The position numbers were made by a program, and so were the translations under genes. Shown piece after piece: positions 37,491 to 62,883 of a stretch of 64,000 nt of DNA (its first letter is position 1; each line of letters starts with the position of its first letter). The notes under the pieces are model-generated. The model did no database searches, was not told where the DNA came from, and worked only from the letters and a program-made list of their open reading frames with translations. Source of the stretch: Gluconacetobacter diazotrophicus PA1 5 (lineage in GTDB: Bacteria > Pseudomonadota > Alphaproteobacteria > Acetobacterales > Acetobacteraceae); NCBI RefSeq assembly GCF_000021325.1, contig NC_011365.1, positions 3,376,001 through 3,440,000 on the forward strand, given 5' to 3'.

Positions 37491-38510
37491 CTAGGGCTGG
37501 TCCCTTTCCCGGGCGAGTTCCAGCGCGCGGGCATAGACCGTGCGGCGGGGCAGGTTGACGGCGCCGGCGACCAGCGCGGCCGCGTCCTTGACCGACAGGC
37601 TGGCCAGCGCCGCGCGCAGCCGGCTGTCCAGGTCGTCCGCCCCGCTGTCGTCCTCGGCCGGCGGGCCCAGCAGGACCGTGATTTCCCCCCGTGCCGCATT
37701 CTGCGCGTACCAGGCGGCCAGCGTGCCGGCGGGGCCGCGCCGGACTTCCTCGAACCGCTTGGTCAGTTCGCGCGCCACGGCGGCGGGCCGGTCCGCGCCG
37801 AAGATGTCGGCCAGGTCCGCCAGCATGGCGTCCAGCCGGTGCGGGGCCTCGTGCCAGATCAGGGTGGCGGACAGGCCGGCCTGTTCGGCCGCGCGCAGGC
37901 GCCCCAGCGCCTCGCGCCGCGCCGCCGTGCGCGGGGGCAGGAAGCCCGAGAACAGGAACGGATGCGGCGGCAGGCCCGACAGGGTCAGAGCGGTGATCGC
38001 GGCGTTGGGGCCGGGGACGGCCGTGACCGGAATATCGGCCGCGATCGCCGCCCGCACCAGGCGAAAGCCCGGATCGGACAGCAGGGGCGTGCCGGCATCC
38101 GACACGATGGCGATGCGCCGCCCGCGTTCCAACTGGGCGATCAGGGCGGGAATCCGCTGCTGCTCGTTATGGTCGTGCAGGGGTTCGGTGCGGACGGTGA
38201 TGGCGCGCGAGGCCAGCAGGCGCGCGGTGACGCGCGTGTCCTCGCACAGCACGAGGTCCGTCCCGGACAGGGTCGCGACGGCCCGGTCGCTGAAATCGCC
38301 CAGGTTGCCGATGGGGGTGGAGACCAGCGCCAGCCCCCCCTGGCCTGGGCGGGCGGGCGTTTCGTCATCGGATGTCACGTCATCGGATGTCACGTCATCG
38401 GGCGCCATGTCCCCGGGTGTCGTATCGTCCGGGGCATGACGGGCGGGTTCCGCTCCGCTATGGGGAGAGGGCGCTTGGAAAGGCAGGGACGAGGAAGATG
38501 AGTCGGTCAT
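37491..38510 (-). CDS. rsmI: 16S rRNA (cytidine-1402-2'-O)-methyltransferase
   Basis: A tetrapyrrole-methylase-fold enzyme that 2'-O-methylates C1402 in the decoding centre. Core motifs are STPIGNLGD, LCEDTRVTARLL, SDAGTPLLSDPG and PGPNAAITAL. It is 339 residues from the ATG used here, which overlaps the start of the divergent LpoA-like gene. About 55 residues precede the core, low-complexity and Ser/Asp-rich, built partly from a 15-bp repeat (38363-38401). A start at the internal ATG (38408) would remove part of this and the overlap, so the true N-terminus is uncertain. The rsmI/lpoA divergent pair is the same as in E. coli (yraL/yraM). Confidence 0.9.
   Translation of the reverse strand: MTDSSSSSLPFQAPSPHSGAEPARHAPDDTTPGDMAPDDVTSDDVTSDDETPARPGQGGLALVSTPIGNLGDFSDRAVATLSGTDLVLCEDTRVTARLLASRAITVRTEPLHDHNEQQRIPALIAQLERGRRIAIVSDAGTPLLSDPGFRLVRAAIAADIPVTAVPGPNAAITALTLSGLPPHPFLFSGFLPPRTAARREALGRLRAAEQAGLSATLIWHEAPHRLDAMLADLADIFGADRPAAVARELTKRFEEVRRGPAGTLAAWYAQNAARGEITVLLGPPAEDDSGADDLDSRLRAALASLSVKDAAALVAGAVNLPRRTVYARALELARERDQP
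38363..38401. repeat. 15-bp tandem repeat in the rsmI N-terminal region
   Basis: CGTCATCGGATGTCA is present 2.6 times (38363-38377, 38378-38392, then nine more bases). On the minus strand it encodes repeated Asp-Asp-Val-Thr-Ser units. The unit is a multiple of three, so copy changes would keep the frame. Confidence 0.85.
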
Positions 38511-40758: not shown

Positions 40759-41679
40759 TCAGGGCCGCAGGTGTTTCGGCCAGCGCCGGTGCAGCCACAG
40801 CCAACTGCCCGGGCGGGCGCGGATCCAGCTTTCCAGCCGGTCGTTGACGGCCTGGGTCAGGGCCAGGATGTCGGCCTGGCGGTCGCCGCTGTCCGGCAGG
40901 TCCATCGGCGGCTCGACATGGATGCGCAGCCGCGCCGGGCCCAGCCGTTCGACATAGCCTGGGATGACCGGGCAGCGATAGCGCAGGGCCATGGCGGCCA
41001 GCGCGGGGGCGGTCATGGCGGGGTGGCCGAACAGCCGGGCCTCGATCCCGTCATTCATCTTCTGGTCCACCAGCATGCCCAGCCGCCCGCCGCGCGCGAT
41101 ATGGGCCAGCGCGCCGCGCGCGCCGCGCGCGCCCTTGGCGAACATGGGCACCGACTGCCCCATCGCGGCGTCGCGCAGGCCGCGGATCATCGCATCGACC
41201 AGCGGGTTGCCCGCCGCGCGGTAGAACGAGGCGAACGGCAGGCCGTGATGCGCTACCCCGGGGGGCAGCATCTCCCAGTTTCCGATATGGCCGGACATGA
41301 AGACCACCGGGCCGCCGCGCGCCGCCTGGGCGGCCAGGTGTTCGGCCCCCACGACATCCCACCCCGGCCCCGAGGCGGTATCGCGGGGCAGGGCCGCCAG
41401 GTGGGGGAATTCCCCCACCGTGCGACCCAGATTGTCCCAGACATCCCGGATCACCGCACGCCGTGCCGCCTGGTCCAGTTCCGGCATCGCCAGGCGCAGG
41501 TTGGCATCGGCGACGCGCGAGACCGGCAGCCGCGGGCCAATAATGCGGCAGACCGCCCCCCCGACATTCGATGCCCGCACCGGTCCCAGCCGGCGCAGCA
41601 GGGCCAGCGCGCCACGCGCGGCCAGGGCCTCGGCGCGCATCAGCAGGGTGACGCGTGGCGTCTTGTCCGTGTCCGTCAT
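40759..41679 (-). CDS. lpxL: Lipid A acyltransferase, LpxL/LpxM (HtrB/MsbB) family
   Basis: A 306-residue inner-membrane acyltransferase that adds a secondary fatty acyl chain to Kdo-lipid A. The catalytic HX4(D/E) motif is visible at SGHIGNWE (His131, Glu136), with FYRAAGNPLVDAMI and the LGMLVDQKMNDGIEARLFG substrate segment following. No long N-terminal span is obvious. It overlaps lpxK by 4 bases and closes the waaA-lpxK-lpxL block. LpxL versus LpxM specificity cannot be told. Confidence 0.9.
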   Translation of the reverse strand: MTDTDKTPRVTLLMRAEALAARGALALLRRLGPVRASNVGGAVCRIIGPRLPVSRVADANLRLAMPELDQAARRAVIRDVWDNLGRTVGEFPHLAALPRDTASGPGWDVVGAEHLAAQAARGGPVVFMSGHIGNWEMLPPGVAHHGLPFASFYRAAGNPLVDAMIRGLRDAAMGQSVPMFAKGARGARGALAHIARGGRLGMLVDQKMNDGIEARLFGHPAMTAPALAAMALRYRCPVIPGYVERLGPARLRIHVEPPMDLPDSGDRQADILALTQAVNDRLESWIRARPGSWLWLHRRWPKHLRP

Positions 41680-42659
41680 GATGATGCTTTATCCAGCCAC
41701 ATATCCAGCAGCCGCTCCGGCGCCATGGGATCGGCCCATGCCAGCGTGACGTCCACGCTGCGGACCTGCGCCCGGATGGCGGGGGGCAGGCGTACCGCGT
41801 CCTTGGGCGTCGTCAGCAGCACGGCGCCCTGTACCGCGGCCATGGCTGACAGGCGGCGCACGTCCCGGGGGCGATAGGCATGATGGTCGGGAAAGGGCAG
41901 GCAGGCCGCAAGCCGGATGCCCTGCGCGCGCAGCCCGTCGAAGAACTTGTCGGGCCGCCCGATCCCCGCGAAGGCGATGGCGGGCCGCCCGGCCAGCATC
42001 GGGGCAGCCTCCTGCATCGCCAGGTCGGCACGCAGGACCGGCAGGGCGGGGGGCAGGTGCGCCAGCGCCCCGGTCCGGTCCCCGCCGATCAGGATGGCGG
42101 CGCGTGCGCGCCGGCAGCCCTGCGCCACCGGTTCGCGCAGCGGCCCGGCGGGCAGGACATGCCCGTTGCCGAAGCCGCTGCCGCCGTCGATGACCAGCAG
42201 GCCCATATCCTGGCGCAGGCCGGGATTCTGGAACCCGTCATCCATCACCAGGCAATCCGCCCCGGCGGCCACCGCCGCGCGCGCGCCGGCCGCGCGGTCG
42301 GCCGACACATGGCAGGGGGCGACCCGGGCCAGCAGCAGGGCCTCGTCCCCGACCTCGGCGGCGCTATGGCGGGCAGGGTCCACCAGCAGGGGGCCGCGCG
42401 CGCGGCCGCCATAGCCGCGGGTCAGGATATGCACATGGCGCCCGCGCGCGACCAGGCGCGCCGCCAGGTCCAGCGCCACGGTCGTCTTGCCCGCGCCGCC
42501 CGCCGTCAGGTTACCGCAGCACAGGACGGGAACCGGCGCGCGCCAGCCTGTCCCGCGCATGCGCCGCGCCGTGGCCAGCGTGTAGAGTGCTGCGGCCGGC
42601 GCCAGCAGGCGCGCGGGCCAGCCGCCATCGCCCCCGGACCAGAAGCGGGGCGCGTGCAT
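41676..42659 (-). CDS. lpxK: Tetraacyldisaccharide 4'-kinase
   Basis: A 327-residue membrane-associated kinase that phosphorylates the 4' position of the lipid A disaccharide made by LpxB. It has the P-loop GNLTAGGAGKTT, LTRGYGGRARGP, the VMDDGFQNPGL Walker B-like segment and FPDHHAYRP, all typical of LpxK. The start MHAPRFWSGG overlaps the upstream stop by one base (TGATG). It sits between the Kdo transferase fusion and lpxL, giving three successive lipid A steps on one transcript. Confidence 0.95.
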   Translation of the reverse strand: MHAPRFWSGGDGGWPARLLAPAAALYTLATARRMRGTGWRAPVPVLCCGNLTAGGAGKTTVALDLAARLVARGRHVHILTRGYGGRARGPLLVDPARHSAAEVGDEALLLARVAPCHVSADRAAGARAAVAAGADCLVMDDGFQNPGLRQDMGLLVIDGGSGFGNGHVLPAGPLREPVAQGCRRARAAILIGGDRTGALAHLPPALPVLRADLAMQEAAPMLAGRPAIAFAGIGRPDKFFDGLRAQGIRLAACLPFPDHHAYRPRDVRRLSAMAAVQGAVLLTTPKDAVRLPPAIRAQVRSVDVTLAWADPMAPERLLDMWLDKASS

Positions 42660-44626
42660 CACGTCTCCATCAGCGCCAGCAGACGCGCGGCGATGCGGCC
42701 TGGCAGGCCCTGGTCCTGGCTGGCGACCTGGGCCGCGCGGCATCCGGCATCGTGCGCGCGCGCCGGGTCGGCCAGCGTGCCGTCCACCCAGTCCGCCAGC
42801 GCGGCGGCGTCCGGCACGATGGCGACGGCGTCCCGCAGCCGGGCGAAGGCGCCGGTAAAATTCGCGATCAGCGGCCCGGACGCCAGGGCGGCGCCGAACC
42901 GCGCCGGCTCCAGCGGGTTGTGTCCGCCCCGTTCGTCCCGTCCCCCCGGGGCCGACAGGCTGTTGCCCAGGAAGACGATCGGCACCACCCGGTAGAACAG
43001 GCCCAGTTCGCCCAGCGTGTCGCAGATCCAGAACCGGTCGGCGGGGCCGGGCTCGGCCCCCGCCGCACGGCGGGGGGCACCATCCAGCAGCTCGGCGATC
43101 TCCACCCCGCGTTCGGGGTGGCGGGGTACGATGATCGTCAGCAGGTCCGGGTGGCGGTCGCGCAGCAGCCGGTCGGCCTGGGCGATCAGGTCTTCCTCCC
43201 CCTCATGGGTCGAGGCGGCCAGCCAGACCGGGCGCCCGGCGATGACGGCGCGCAGGCGGTCGATCTCCGCGGGATCGGCCGGCAGGGGCGGGGCGGCGTC
43301 CTTCAGGTCGCCGGGGACGTCCACCCGCGTGGCGCCGAGGGCGTGCAGCCGCGCCGCGTCCTCGTCCGATCGTGCGGCGATCCAGGCGAAGCGGCCGAGC
43401 ATGCGTTCCGCCAGGCCCCGCAGACGGCTCCATCCCGCGCGCGAGCGGTCCGACAGCCGCGCGTTCAGCAGCACGATGGGGACGCCGGCCCGATGGCAGG
43501 ATTCCAGCAGGTTGGGCCATAGCTCGCTTTCGGTCAGCGCCGCCGCATCGGGGCGCCAGTGGCGCAGGAAGCGGTCCATCCAGCCCGGCACGTCCAGCGG
43601 CACGAACTGATGGATCACCCGCGCGCCCCACGCGGCCTGGGCCCGGCGGCGGTCCAGCAGTTCGCCGGCGGTGACGGTCGCCGTGGTGAACAGCACATGC
43701 AGCGTGGCGTCCCGCCGCGTCAGTTCGGCGACGACGGGCAGGACCGACAGGGTCTCGCCCACGCTGGCGGCGTGCAGCCACAGGACGCGCCCGGGCGGGC
43801 GGGGGCGTGCGGACCGGCCCCTGCGTTCGTTCAGCCGTCCCCGGACTTCCTTGCCCCGCCGCAGGCGCCGGCGCAGCAGCAGGGTCAGCGCCGGAGCCAG
43901 CGCGGTGGCAAGGCCGGCCCACAGGCCCGACAGGAACCGGGCCGGGGCGGGGCAGGCGGCGCGCATCGCCTGGTCGATGGCATCGCCCAGCCGCGTCGCG
44001 GCGTCTTCATGATCATGCGGGGTGACGATGATGGGCGCCCCGCAGACGAAGCGCCCGCGCCCGAAGGGCAGCGGCACCATCATCCGGTCCCAGGTGTCCA
44101 GCCGCCAGGCGGAACAGCACGCCCCGACCGGGACGATCGGCGCGGCAGACAGGCGGGCCAGGCCGACCACCCCCTGCTGGACCTGGCGGCGGGGGCCGCG
44201 CGGGCCGTCCGGGGTGATGACGATCAGGCTGTCATTGCGCACCTGGTCCAGCATGCGGCGCAGCGCCCGGGCGCCGCCCTTGCTCTTGCCCTTGCGGTCG
44301 GTCGATCCGGCGATGGCCTTGATCTTCCAGGGGGCGACGATGTCGGTGACCAGGCGGCCATCGCGGTTGCGGCTGATCAGGACATGCAGGCGCAGGGCGG
44401 GATTCTGCGGCGTTGCCCACCACCACAGGGCGGGGGTCAGGACCAGCGCCTCGTGCCAGAAGGCCACCAGGGCCGAATGCTCGCCCCGCCCGGTCAGCAG
44501 GGGATGGGCGTCGGGATGGATGTCGAACGTCCAGCGCGTGGTGCGCAGCGCCAGGCGCAGATAGGCGCGCAACAGGACGATGGCCAGCGCGCGCGCGCCA
44601 CCCGTTCCCGGCAGGCGCCTCAGCAT
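42659..44626 (-). CDS. waaA: Fused DUF374 acyltransferase-like domain and Kdo transferase (WaaA/KdtA)
   Basis: One uninterrupted 655-residue frame holding two enzymes usually separate. Residues about 20-235 are a DUF374 (lysophospholipid acyltransferase-like) domain with FWHEALVLTPAL, GSTDRKGKSKGGARAL and ITPDGPRGPRRQVQQG. Residues about 240-655 are a complete 3-deoxy-D-manno-octulosonic acid transferase, starting at its normal N-terminal basic segment (LTLLLRRRLRRGKEVRGRLNE) and showing LWLHAASVGETLS, TESELWPNLL, ASTHEGEED and GGHNPLEPA. WaaA adds Kdo to lipid IVA, after LpxK. The DUF374 part may acylate or bind the same lipid. Start is set at MLRRLPG; the frame is open upstream but Arg/Pro-rich and shadow-like. 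Confidence 0.88.
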   Translation of the reverse strand: MLRRLPGTGGARALAIVLLRAYLRLALRTTRWTFDIHPDAHPLLTGRGEHSALVAFWHEALVLTPALWWWATPQNPALRLHVLISRNRDGRLVTDIVAPWKIKAIAGSTDRKGKSKGGARALRRMLDQVRNDSLIVITPDGPRGPRRQVQQGVVGLARLSAAPIVPVGACCSAWRLDTWDRMMVPLPFGRGRFVCGAPIIVTPHDHEDAATRLGDAIDQAMRAACPAPARFLSGLWAGLATALAPALTLLLRRRLRRGKEVRGRLNERRGRSARPRPPGRVLWLHAASVGETLSVLPVVAELTRRDATLHVLFTTATVTAGELLDRRRAQAAWGARVIHQFVPLDVPGWMDRFLRHWRPDAAALTESELWPNLLESCHRAGVPIVLLNARLSDRSRAGWSRLRGLAERMLGRFAWIAARSDEDAARLHALGATRVDVPGDLKDAAPPLPADPAEIDRLRAVIAGRPVWLAASTHEGEEDLIAQADRLLRDRHPDLLTIIVPRHPERGVEIAELLDGAPRRAAGAEPGPADRFWICDTLGELGLFYRVVPIVFLGNSLSAPGGRDERGGHNPLEPARFGAALASGPLIANFTGAFARLRDAVAIVPDAAALADWVDGTLADPARAHDAGCRAAQVASQDQGLPGRIAARLLALMET

Positions 44627-44724: not shown

Positions 44725-45219
44725 TCAGACCCTTAGCAGGCGGCGCAGGCCAAATCCCTCGGCCAGCTCGCCGCGCACGGCGGGCTGGTAGGCGGTGTGG
44801 AAGCGGGCATGGGCGAGGGCCCAGACGGCGGGATCGGCGTCGTCGGGCAGTTCGACCGTGGTGGCGCCGCACCGCAGCAGGAACTCATACTGGTCGGGCA
44901 GGGGGCGGCCGGTCACGCGGATGTCGCCGGCAAAGCCCAGATGTTCGCGCAGGGCCCGGGCCTGACTGAAGGCGCGGCCGTCGCGAAAGCTGGGGAAGGT
45001 CACGGCGACCAGCGACAGGCGCGGCAGGGCGGTGCGCAGCACGGCGATTTCGGCGTCCGGCGGGATCGCGACGCCCAGCTCTTCGTTGCTGTTGCGTGCC
45101 AGCCCGTCCCCGATCCGCGCCAGGGGCACGATCACGGGGCCGGTCGCGGGCAGGGCGTCGTCGGGGCCGATGGCGGTCCAGCGATCCGCGACGAGTCGTC
45201 CGTCTTCAAGCAGTGGCAT
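44725..45219 (-). CDS. DUF934 family protein linked to sulfite reductase
   Basis: A 164-residue protein of the DUF934 family, which is found beside assimilatory sulfite reductases. Visible features are PVIVPLARI, VAVTFPSFRDGRAFSQARALRE (the most conserved segment) and PDQYEFLLRCGATTVEL. No catalytic motif is known; a role in electron supply or in cofactor handling for CysI has been suggested only from context. It overlaps the cysI gene by 14 bases and is the last gene of DUF2849-cysI-DUF934. Confidence 0.85.
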   Translation of the reverse strand: MPLLEDGRLVADRWTAIGPDDALPATGPVIVPLARIGDGLARNSNEELGVAIPPDAEIAVLRTALPRLSLVAVTFPSFRDGRAFSQARALREHLGFAGDIRVTGRPLPDQYEFLLRCGATTVELPDDADPAVWALAHARFHTAYQPAVRGELAEGFGLRRLLRV

Positions 45220-46909
45220 AAACGGCGTCCTTGAACAGCGCGGCACCCAGCCGCCGATAGGTATCGAGGAAGCGTTCCTCACCGGTGCGATGGACCAGAT
45301 AGGCGTCCACCAGCCGGGCGATGGCGTCCACCGTCGCGTCCTCGGGCAGGGCCGGGCCCAGGATCTCGCCGATCGCGGCGTCGCTGCCGGCCGAGCCGCC
45401 CAGGGTGAGCTGGAAGAACTCCTCGCCCTTCTTGTCCACGCCCAGGATGCCGATATGGCCGGCATGGTGGTGGCCGCAGGCATTGATGCAGCCCGAAATC
45501 TTGATCTGCAGGTCGCCGATGCTTTCCTGCAGTTCCGGGTTGGCGAAGCGGGCGCTGAGCTTCTGCGCGATCGGGATCGACCGTGCATTGGCCAGCGAGC
45601 AGTAATCCAGCCCGGGGCAGGCGATGATGTCGCCGATCAGCCCGATATTGGCGGTGGCCAGCCCGGCGGCGCGCAGGGCCTGCCACAGCGCGTGAAGCGC
45701 GTCCTGGCGGACATGGCCCAGTACCAGGTTCTGCATGTGGGTGATGCGGATTTCGCCGAAGGCGTAGCGGTCGGCCAGGTCCGCGATGACGTCCATCTGG
45801 GCCGAGGTCGCGTCGCCCGGAATGCCGCCATCGGGCTTCAGCGAGATGACGGCCGAGATATATCCCGCCGTGCGGTGGGGGTGGGTGTTGGTGCGGACCC
45901 AGCGGTCGAAGGCCGGATCGGCGCGCCGGGCGCGGTCCAGATGCCCGGCCGCGTCGGCGGGCGCATCCAGGTCGGGCGTGCCGAAGCGCGCGCGGATGGC
46001 GGCCACCGTTTCGGGCGGCAGGCGATAGCGCGCGCGGTCCATGGCGGCGAATTCGGCGTCCACCCGGGCGCGATAGCCCTCGACCCCCAGCGCCTGGACC
46101 AGGATCTTGATGCGTGCCTTGTAGATGTTGTCGCGGCGGCCGTACTCGTTATAGACGCGGATGATCGCTTCCAGATAGGCCAGCAGGTCTTCCTCGGGCA
46201 GGTCGTCGCGCAGATGCACGCCGATGATCGGCGTCCGGCCCATCCCGCCGCCGACGAAGACGTCGAACACCGTCCGCCCGTCCGGCCCCGGCTTGGCCAC
46301 CAGCCCGATATCGTGGAAGCGGGCGGCCACGCGGTCGTTCGGGCTGCCGCTGATCGCGATCTTGAACTTGCGCGGCAGGAACGAGAATTCGGGATGCAGC
46401 GTCGACCACTGGCGCAGGATTTCGGCATGCACGCGCGGGTCGACCAGTTCGTCCACGGCGGCACCGGCGAACTGGTCGCAGGTCACGTTGCGGATGCAGT
46501 TGCCGCTGGTCTGGATGGCATGCATGTCCACCCCGGCCAGCCGACCCAGGATATCGGGCGTGTCTTCCAGCCTGATCCAGTTGAACTGCAGGTTCTGCCG
46601 CGTGGTGAAATGGCCGTAATCGCGGTCATAGGTCCGCGCGATATGGGCCAGTTCGCGCATCTGGCGGGAATCCAGCATCCCGTACGGGATCGCGATCCGC
46701 AGCATGTAGGCGTGCAGTTGCAGATACAGGCCGTTCATCAGGCGTAGCGGCTTGAATTCATCCTCGGACAGGGCGCCGGACAGGCGGCGGGCCACCTGGT
46801 CGCGGAACTGCTCCACCCGGTCGGCGAGGAAGGCGCGGTCCACCTGGTCGTAGGCGTAATGCCCGACCGGCAGCGTGGGGGCTGTGGTGTCAGCTTGCAT
46901 GGGCGGCAC
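45206..46909 (-). CDS. cysI: Sulfite reductase, sirohaem/4Fe-4S haemoprotein (nitrite/sulfite reductase family)
   Basis: A 567-residue cytoplasmic haemoprotein that reduces sulfite to sulfide with six electrons. The two halves each carry the ferredoxin-like NTR domain. The cluster/sirohaem Cys set is present as CPGLDYC and CINAC, with the HHHAGHIG stretch after it. Other conserved segments are TTRQNLQFNWI and CIRNVTCD. No NADPH flavoprotein partner (CysJ) is nearby, so a ferredoxin is the likely donor. Being flanked by DUF2849 and DUF934 argues for sulfite over nitrite. The 21-base repeat at 47338-47358 lies upstream of its operon. Confidence 0.9.
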   Translation of the reverse strand: MPPMQADTTAPTLPVGHYAYDQVDRAFLADRVEQFRDQVARRLSGALSEDEFKPLRLMNGLYLQLHAYMLRIAIPYGMLDSRQMRELAHIARTYDRDYGHFTTRQNLQFNWIRLEDTPDILGRLAGVDMHAIQTSGNCIRNVTCDQFAGAAVDELVDPRVHAEILRQWSTLHPEFSFLPRKFKIAISGSPNDRVAARFHDIGLVAKPGPDGRTVFDVFVGGGMGRTPIIGVHLRDDLPEEDLLAYLEAIIRVYNEYGRRDNIYKARIKILVQALGVEGYRARVDAEFAAMDRARYRLPPETVAAIRARFGTPDLDAPADAAGHLDRARRADPAFDRWVRTNTHPHRTAGYISAVISLKPDGGIPGDATSAQMDVIADLADRYAFGEIRITHMQNLVLGHVRQDALHALWQALRAAGLATANIGLIGDIIACPGLDYCSLANARSIPIAQKLSARFANPELQESIGDLQIKISGCINACGHHHAGHIGILGVDKKGEEFFQLTLGGSAGSDAAIGEILGPALPEDATVDAIARLVDAYLVHRTGEERFLDTYRRLGAALFKDAVYATA

Positions 46910-61542: not shown

Positions 61543-62883
61543 TCAGTGCAGCGCCGGGCGGCCTTCGTAGATGTCCTGGCCATGCGCGCGCTGGGCCTTG
61601 GCCTTGGCGGCGGCCTTGCGGGCGTAGTCGCGGGCGTGTTCCGGGATCGACAGGTACAGGGTCAGCAGGCCGGCGAAGGCGTACAGGCCCGAGAAGATCC
61701 AGATGATGCCTTCCAGCCCGTGCCAGGATTCGAACCAGGTCACGATGGCCGGACCGACCCAGGTGCTGGCGCCGGCACCCAGTCCCAGCGCCGACAGGGC
61801 CGCCGCCTTTTCCTGCGGGCAGATCTGCGGCACCAGGCCCGACAGCGGCACGAAGGCCGCGACGGTCGCGCCGTAGAAGATGCCGGCCAGGGCGGCCAGC
61901 AGGAAGTCGCCGTGATGGGCCAGCGGCACGTAGTAGAACACCGGCACCGAAACCGCGGCCCCCAGGCAGCCCGCGATGGAAACCACGGTGCGGTGGCCCA
62001 GCCGGTCCGCCAGCATGCCGGACGCCAGGTTGAACAGGATGTTGCTGAGGAACACGATGGACAGCAATTGCAGCCATTGCGACAGCGTGAAGCCCACGAC
62101 CTTGGTGAAGAAGCTGGGCATGATCACCAGGAAGGCATATTCCGACGCCGTGTCGATGGTGCGCACGACCATGGCCACGAACGTCTTGGGCTCGCGCCAC
62201 AGGATGCTGATCGACCCGAAGAAGATGCCGCGCACCGAAACGTCGCGCGGCGCCAGGCGCGCCGAACCCCGCTTTTCATGCGTCAGCAGCAGCGCCACCA
62301 GTCCGCCGGCGACGACCAGCCCCAGCGAGGACCAGAAGGTGGCCATTTCGCCGATCACCGGGATGGTGAAGCTGGCGAACAGCGAACCCAGGGTCGGAAG
62401 GCCGCCCGAAAATGCGAACCAGAACCAGCCCGCCGCCGATCCCAGTTGCCGGGGCGGGGTGGCGGCGGCGATCCAGACCAGGAAGCCGTAGGCGAACAGC
62501 GGATAGCCCAGGCCGCGCAGCGTATAGGCGATCAGCATCATCCGGTAGGAATTGACCTGCACGCCCAGCAGCAGGAACACCACCTCGAAGACGCTCCAGA
62601 TCGCCAGGCCGATCCACATGACCCGCTTGGGGCCCCACAGGTCGGACAGCGGGCCGGACAGCCACGAGGAGAGCGAGACCGCGACGCCATAGACGGTAAA
62701 GAGGAACGCGACGTCGCGCGACGACATGCCGTGGTTTTCAAGATAGGGGGCCAGATAGCCGGCCTCGACCCCATCGCCGACCATGAACAGCAGCAATCCC
62801 ACGAACCCCCACAGGAGCGGTCGCGGAATGCCGAGCTTCTCGGCAAAGGAGGGGCGGGCGGACAGAACGTCTGTCTGCGTCAA
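61543..62883 (-). CDS. MFS transporter, RbtT/DalT/CsbX-like (polyol) type
   Basis: A 446-residue permease with 12 spans. GDGVEAGYLAPYLENHGM at the start, LSGPLSDLWGPKRVMWIGL, RGLGYPLFAYGFLVWIAAATP and TIDTASEYAFLVIMPSFFT are as in ribitol/arabitol-type carriers (RbtT, DalT) and CsbX. A polyol substrate such as arabitol, ribitol or xylitol is therefore likely. I choose a TTG start (LTQTDVLSARPSF) because AGAGGAG lies nine bases upstream; the frame is open a further 93 codons, but that part has no family match. It is flanked by two tRNA genes and preceded by a long A+T-rich leader with several dyads. Confidence 0.82.
   Translation of the reverse strand: MTQTDVLSARPSFAEKLGIPRPLLWGFVGLLLFMVGDGVEAGYLAPYLENHGMSSRDVAFLFTVYGVAVSLSSWLSGPLSDLWGPKRVMWIGLAIWSVFEVVFLLLGVQVNSYRMMLIAYTLRGLGYPLFAYGFLVWIAAATPPRQLGSAAGWFWFAFSGGLPTLGSLFASFTIPVIGEMATFWSSLGLVVAGGLVALLLTHEKRGSARLAPRDVSVRGIFFGSISILWREPKTFVAMVVRTIDTASEYAFLVIMPSFFTKVVGFTLSQWLQLLSIVFLSNILFNLASGMLADRLGHRTVVSIAGCLGAAVSVPVFYYVPLAHHGDFLLAALAGIFYGATVAAFVPLSGLVPQICPQEKAAALSALGLGAGASTWVGPAIVTWFESWHGLEGIIWIFSGLYAFAGLLTLYLSIPEHARDYARKAAAKAKAQRAHGQDIYEGRPALH

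Follow-up and report, generated by a model that had tools for sequence, protein, structure and literature searches.

A gene on the minus strand of Gluconacetobacter diazotrophicus PAl 5 joins an LpxJ-type (DUF374) acyltransferase domain to WaaA, the Kdo transferase, in one reading frame of 655 codons. The fused frame is real, old and conserved. The best explanation for its function is that it encodes a bifunctional, membrane-bound LpxJ-WaaA lipid A enzyme. A probability of about 0.77 is given to this reading, for which we infer the activity of both domains, the position that is acylated and the order of the reactions from sequence, predicted structure and analogy with characterised enzymes. 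The features discussed are collected in Table 1. The window referred to throughout is the whole stretch of DNA that was analysed, 64,000 nucleotides in length.

Table 1. Positions in the window of the fusion gene, its parts and the two genes that follow it
Feature	Position	Strand	Basis
lpxJ-waaA fusion gene	42659..44626	minus	655 codons plus TGA; ATG start, no internal stop
DUF374/LpxJ acyltransferase domain, residues 1-230	43937..44626	minus	PF04028, predicted fold, invariant residues
Last DUF374 helix (residues 206-224) and junction	43939..44011	minus	model; ends of split genes; RioGene extra base at helix start (~44010)
WaaA (Kdo transferase) domain, residues 231-655, including its own membrane-proximal N-terminal helices	42662..43936	minus	PF04413, fold match
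lpxK (lipid A 4'-kinase)	41676..42659	minus	PF02606, E 1.1e-87
LpxL-type secondary acyltransferase	40759..41679	minus	PF03279, E 1.3e-44

The two domains of the fusion protein

The frame runs from an ATG at 44626 to a TGA at 42661-42659 and encodes a protein of 655 amino acids. Coding on the plus strand of the same interval was rejected, as a stop is present there. The whole protein was modelled with AlphaFold2 from 59 aligned proteins of the window and the loci, with a mean pLDDT of 93 and a pTM of 0.79. The preliminary description had read the sequence as two complete domains in a single frame with no stop between them, and the open reading frame, the Pfam matches and the predicted folds all agree with it. 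The frame is not a product of chance, because it recurs in relatives and both of its domains are similarly constrained. An assembly artefact limited to the genome of the window was also considered and rejected, since 13 genera share the fused frame. No published LpxJ-WaaA fusion was found in the open-access literature, subscription papers lying outside the search; protein databases may well show the architecture already.

Judged from sequence and predicted fold, residues 231-655 are a complete WaaA that includes its own N-terminal membrane-proximal helices, as had been claimed. The Glycos_transf_N family (PF04413) matches residues 264-442 with E values of 2.3e-57 to 4.4e-57, and the NCBIfam models for lipid IV(A) Kdo transferase match approximately residues 234-653, with scores under their equivalog cut-offs. 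In the predicted structure residues 258-655 have a GT-B fold and match Aquifex aeolicus WaaA (2xci) with a Z score of 32.2 over 347 residues. The CMP-Kdo domain of the Acinetobacter baumannii enzyme (4bfc) is matched with a Z score of 25.6 and an rmsd of 1.8. Glu291 aligns with the GE motif of 2xci, and the likeness to the Aquifex and Acinetobacter WaaA/KdtA proteins extends over the whole domain in both sequence and fold, including the GE, PRH and GGHN..E motifs. Unlike these proteins, however, the WaaA of the window bears an N-terminal acyltransferase domain. A WaaA query found a single matching place in the genome, and the domain presumably transfers Kdo.

The fold search with the whole protein tested only the WaaA half, so the N-terminal domain was modelled and searched separately. 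DUF374 (PF04028) matches residues 77-146 with E values of 5.5e-22 to 2.4e-21 and 77.6 bits against a cut-off of 26.8. The AlphaFold2 model of this half alone has a pLDDT of 90, and its fold matches are PatA (Z 13.7), plastid GPAT (13.2), PlsC (13.2) and LpxM (11.1). Unrelated entries begin at a Z score of approximately 6.5 and lower; one chain of a complex I assembly intermediate was listed at 10.5. According to the model, a complete DUF374 domain with the acyltransferase fold of PlsC, PatA and LpxM spans residues 1-230. The earlier label "lysophospholipid acyltransferase-like" is therefore correct for the fold but does not hold beyond it.

The "domain of unknown function" label is itself outdated. 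Studies done by Guillotte et al. (2018, PMC6148475) identified the DUF374 proteins of Rickettsia as LpxJ. These late acyltransferases place a secondary chain on the primary acyl chain at the 3' position of lipid A. The same paper cites an LpxJ role for the proteins of Helicobacter, Campylobacter and Wolinella, which do not depend on Kdo being present on their substrate. Mutagenesis of R. typhi LpxJ determined that W60, H61, D86, D132, W172 and D173 are essential and that H84 is dispensable (PMC6148475). The counterparts of the six essential residues in the window protein are W57, H58, D89, D140, W179 and D180, an equivalence made by motif and spacing (31/51/40 versus 25/46/41 residues) rather than by direct alignment, and they are invariant in all 24 fused genes and all 29 split relatives examined. 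The N-terminal domain thus has in common with the LpxJ proteins of Rickettsia, Helicobacter, Campylobacter and Wolinella both the Pfam family and the W, H, D, D, W, D residues, and PatA is the best structural match for the R. typhi LpxJ model as it is for the window domain. It differs in that the known LpxJ enzymes are stand-alone proteins, while here LpxJ is joined to WaaA and has an asparagine at the position of the dispensable second histidine.

What does this asparagine mean? The position of R. typhi H84 is occupied by Asn in 22 of 24 fused genes and by His in 28 of 29 split genes. Together with the dispensability of DUF374 across the Acetobacteraceae, the substitution could be taken to indicate that the N-terminal domain has lost its acyltransferase activity and does no more than tether WaaA to the membrane or to its substrate. 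This is improbable, as H84 can be lost from R. typhi LpxJ, the six essential residues are invariant and the constraint on the DUF374 domain is similar to that on WaaA. The asparagine thus marks the fused lineage, at a position where substitution is known to be tolerated.

Gene context and proposed function

The TGA of the fusion gene shares one base with the ATG of lpxK at 42659 (TGATG), and lpxK in turn overlaps the LpxL-type gene by ATGA. The latter gives the only PF03279 match in the genome. Completion of the lipid A precursor, Kdo addition and both presumed secondary acylations would therefore be encoded in one overlapping cluster. Because the genes overlap, the cluster is probably one transcription unit; simple scans of the minus strand in this region found neither a promoter nor a terminator. 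Upstream, at 44725-46909 on the minus strand, there are a DUF934 gene and a nitrite/sulphite reductase gene, which are probably involved in sulphur assimilation and have no relation to lipid A.

The context bears on the substrate of the acyltransferase. PlsC, GPAT and PatA share its fold, which does not reveal the substrate, and the domain might acylate another lipid, such as a phospholipid or an aminolipid, instead of lipid A. This is no more probable than a tether, since all of the gene context (lpxK, the LpxL-type gene and waaA) belongs to lipid A. Outside the family, moreover, a DUF374 gene is adjacent to waaA in 18 of 20 alphaproteobacterial loci, most of which were sampled for an unusually long WaaA frame or a match spanning both domains with one stop; the other two have no recognisable DUF374 neighbour. 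Furthermore, the DUF374 proteins whose activity is reported in PMC6148475 are lipid A acyltransferases. By analogy, these characterised LpxJ enzymes lend weight to the suggestion in the preliminary description that both domains share one lipid A intermediate as substrate.

For the bifunctional LpxJ-WaaA enzyme the following mechanism is proposed. LpxK, encoded next to the fusion, would supply the precursor. The LpxJ-type domain would transfer a second fatty acyl chain to a primary 3-hydroxyacyl chain of this precursor, the 3' chain by analogy, with H58 acting as the base together with D140. On the cytoplasmic side, the WaaA domain would take Kdo, or a Kdo-derived octulosonic acid, from its CMP form and attach it to the same precursor, and the single LpxL-type enzyme encoded after lpxK would add the other secondary chain. 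The characterised LpxJ enzymes do not require a substrate that carries Kdo, and so the two domains may be able to act on one precursor in either order. The fusion may also bring a gain in efficiency. In E. coli, Kdo is required before late acylation. It is conceivable, though unlikely, that the fusion channels the precursor between the two active sites and that Kdo transfer is gated by a secondary acylation which precedes it, the reverse of the E. coli order. With LpxJ and WaaA in one protein, the order and the coupling of Kdo addition and late acylation become directly testable, and this in bacteria that are harmless. The bifunctional enzyme would also give a simple account of the place of the second secondary acyltransferase in acetic acid bacteria that have one LpxL-type gene.

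The lipid A of A. pasteurianus is hexa-acylated and that of Granulibacter is penta-acylated with one secondary chain (PMC8036547). The acylation reported for the Acetobacteraceae fits a bifunctional LpxJ-WaaA in outline, which is suggestive only. The fusion had also been offered as an explanation for the unusual lipid A of acetic acid bacteria. This does not follow, as the oddities lie mainly in the sugars, namely Ko, mannose, glucuronic acid and GlcN3N (PMC8036547), and the fusion concerns at most the sixth acyl chain.

Evidence for a single polypeptide

In the predicted structure the last DUF374 helix (residues 206-224) is followed directly by the first WaaA helix (residues 230-242). In split relatives the DUF374 gene ends at the equivalent of residues 226-245, with a median of 230. 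The distance from the last conserved proline of DUF374 to the first conserved tryptophan of WaaA is 33-38 residues in 21 of the 24 fused genes. Neither in Gluconacetobacter nor in most of the other fused genes was an in-frame start with a Shine-Dalgarno sequence found within 20 codons of the junction, and in a few fused loci a start codon near the junction is missing altogether. Three fused genes, all from genera other than Gluconacetobacter, have a GTG with an upstream GGAG near the junction. Split loci have a waaA start codon in this region, some with a Shine-Dalgarno-like sequence. An internal start that would give a separate WaaA was considered for Gluconacetobacter and rejected, there being no clear candidate backed by a Shine-Dalgarno sequence. 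Among five Gluconacetobacter sequences the dN/dS ratio is 0.17-0.53 for the LpxJ part and 0.26-0.45 for the WaaA part, and is somewhat higher at the junction. The lack of a clear restart, the nearly fixed length of the linker and the like dN/dS values of the two domains indicate, at the level of sequence, that the product is a single constrained polypeptide.

Conflict with a second sequence of the same strain

Two genome records exist for G. diazotrophicus PAl 5, that of JGI (CP001189), from which the window is taken, and that of RioGene (AM889285, G602). The RioGene record has one extra base at approximately 44010 (codon ~206), which produces a TGA after codon 206 and places WaaA in another frame, with an ATG in that frame just upstream of the new stop. 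A stop or frameshift near codon 235 had been named in advance as a finding that would speak against the fusion. The two records do not differ there, at about 43.9 kb; the discrepancy is approximately 30 codons upstream. The extra base is formally a break of the kind envisaged, but the relatives argue strongly against its being the true or ancestral state.

Should RioGene have the correct sequence, the living strain would carry a broken frame and make LpxJ and WaaA separately, with the WaaA ATG overlapping the new stop. Over the 64 kb there are also 187 mismatches between the records that look like real substitutions, so JGI and RioGene may represent different clones. Nonetheless, a broken frame is very improbable, the least probable of the alternatives to the fusion enzyme. 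The break would strip the last helix from DUF374 and hand it to WaaA, and split relatives keep this helix with DUF374. The frame is intact in the five other Gluconacetobacter sequences, although these are not all independent, as G123 and the record named G. johannae may be one genome. Over the 64 kb, the RioGene record also has 22 indels relative to the window, and most are one or two bases long. Optical mapping determined that the JGI sequence matches the strain better than that of RioGene (PMC3035290), which is a test of structure and not of single bases. The frame break precedes the last DUF374 helix, unlike all true splits, and occurs in a record rich in single-base indels, and it is therefore most likely an error or a private mutation.

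When the two PAl 5 genomes were compared in 2010, "Protein of unknown function DUF374" was entered among the roles found only in RioGene, the position of the gene not being given (PMC3035290). As the JGI sequence has DUF374 inside the WaaA protein, this entry probably reflects the one-base discrepancy and not a difference in gene content. Other differences between the records include a dense run of one- to three-base RioGene insertions at 61840-61999, which resembles low-quality sequence, and differences of exactly 15 bases each at 38363-38401 and at approximately 8440, the one at 38363 being a perfect 15-base tandem array.

Distribution and origin of the fusion

The idea that the fusion is specific to the strain is contradicted by its distribution. 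The fused frame is present in 23 of 200 sampled Acetobacteraceae genomes from 13 genera, nearly all of them in one lineage of acetic acid bacteria, and in every member of the genus of the window sampled in this family-level search. In an order-level sample it was present in 40 of 100 genomes. The fusion is thus an old, clade-wide state. The preliminary description was correct that DUF374 and WaaA are usually encoded by separate genes. In the split Acetobacteraceae that were examined, the DUF374 gene is directly upstream of waaA, usually overlapping it or a few bases away and commonly in another frame. Split pairs in other Acetobacteraceae and Alphaproteobacteria have the same order and orientation as the fusion, commonly with lpxK and the LpxL-type gene next; however, they are two genes, usually overlapping or almost in contact and mostly in different frames, where the fusion is one frame. 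Fusions were found in none of the 20 loci outside the family, all of which are split; they come from a list of the best matches, and rare fusions in distant Alphaproteobacteria beyond that list are possible.

A tree of either domain requires two changes between the fused and split labels, compared with approximately 18 when the labels are shuffled. There is one main fused lineage and one separate case (genus code g43), and the position of g71 differs between the two domain trees. The simplest history, as read from the sequences, is that two overlapping genes fused once in acetic acid bacteria, with perhaps one or two further fusions. The fused gene would then have been fixed as the sole source of WaaA. 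Fusion of operon neighbours is an ordinary kind of event; it is the partners that are of interest. Many split genomes have the genes adjacent, which suggests that co-production of LpxJ and WaaA was favoured before the fusion.

Of the 200 Acetobacteraceae genomes, 168 gave a DUF374 match and 32, some of which are incomplete, did not. Several of these 32 genomes are about 2 Mb in size; an LpxL-type gene was found in 193 of the 200. Loss of LpxJ should result in fewer lipid A acyl chains. Since DUF374 was not found in these 32 genomes, and since one species of a fused genus (L089, genome G599) has kept WaaA without DUF374, WaaA does not require the acyl step. A second member of that genus (L090, genome G583) has a genome of 1.7 Mb with stops in the waaA region, and the two cases suggest secondary loss or decay.
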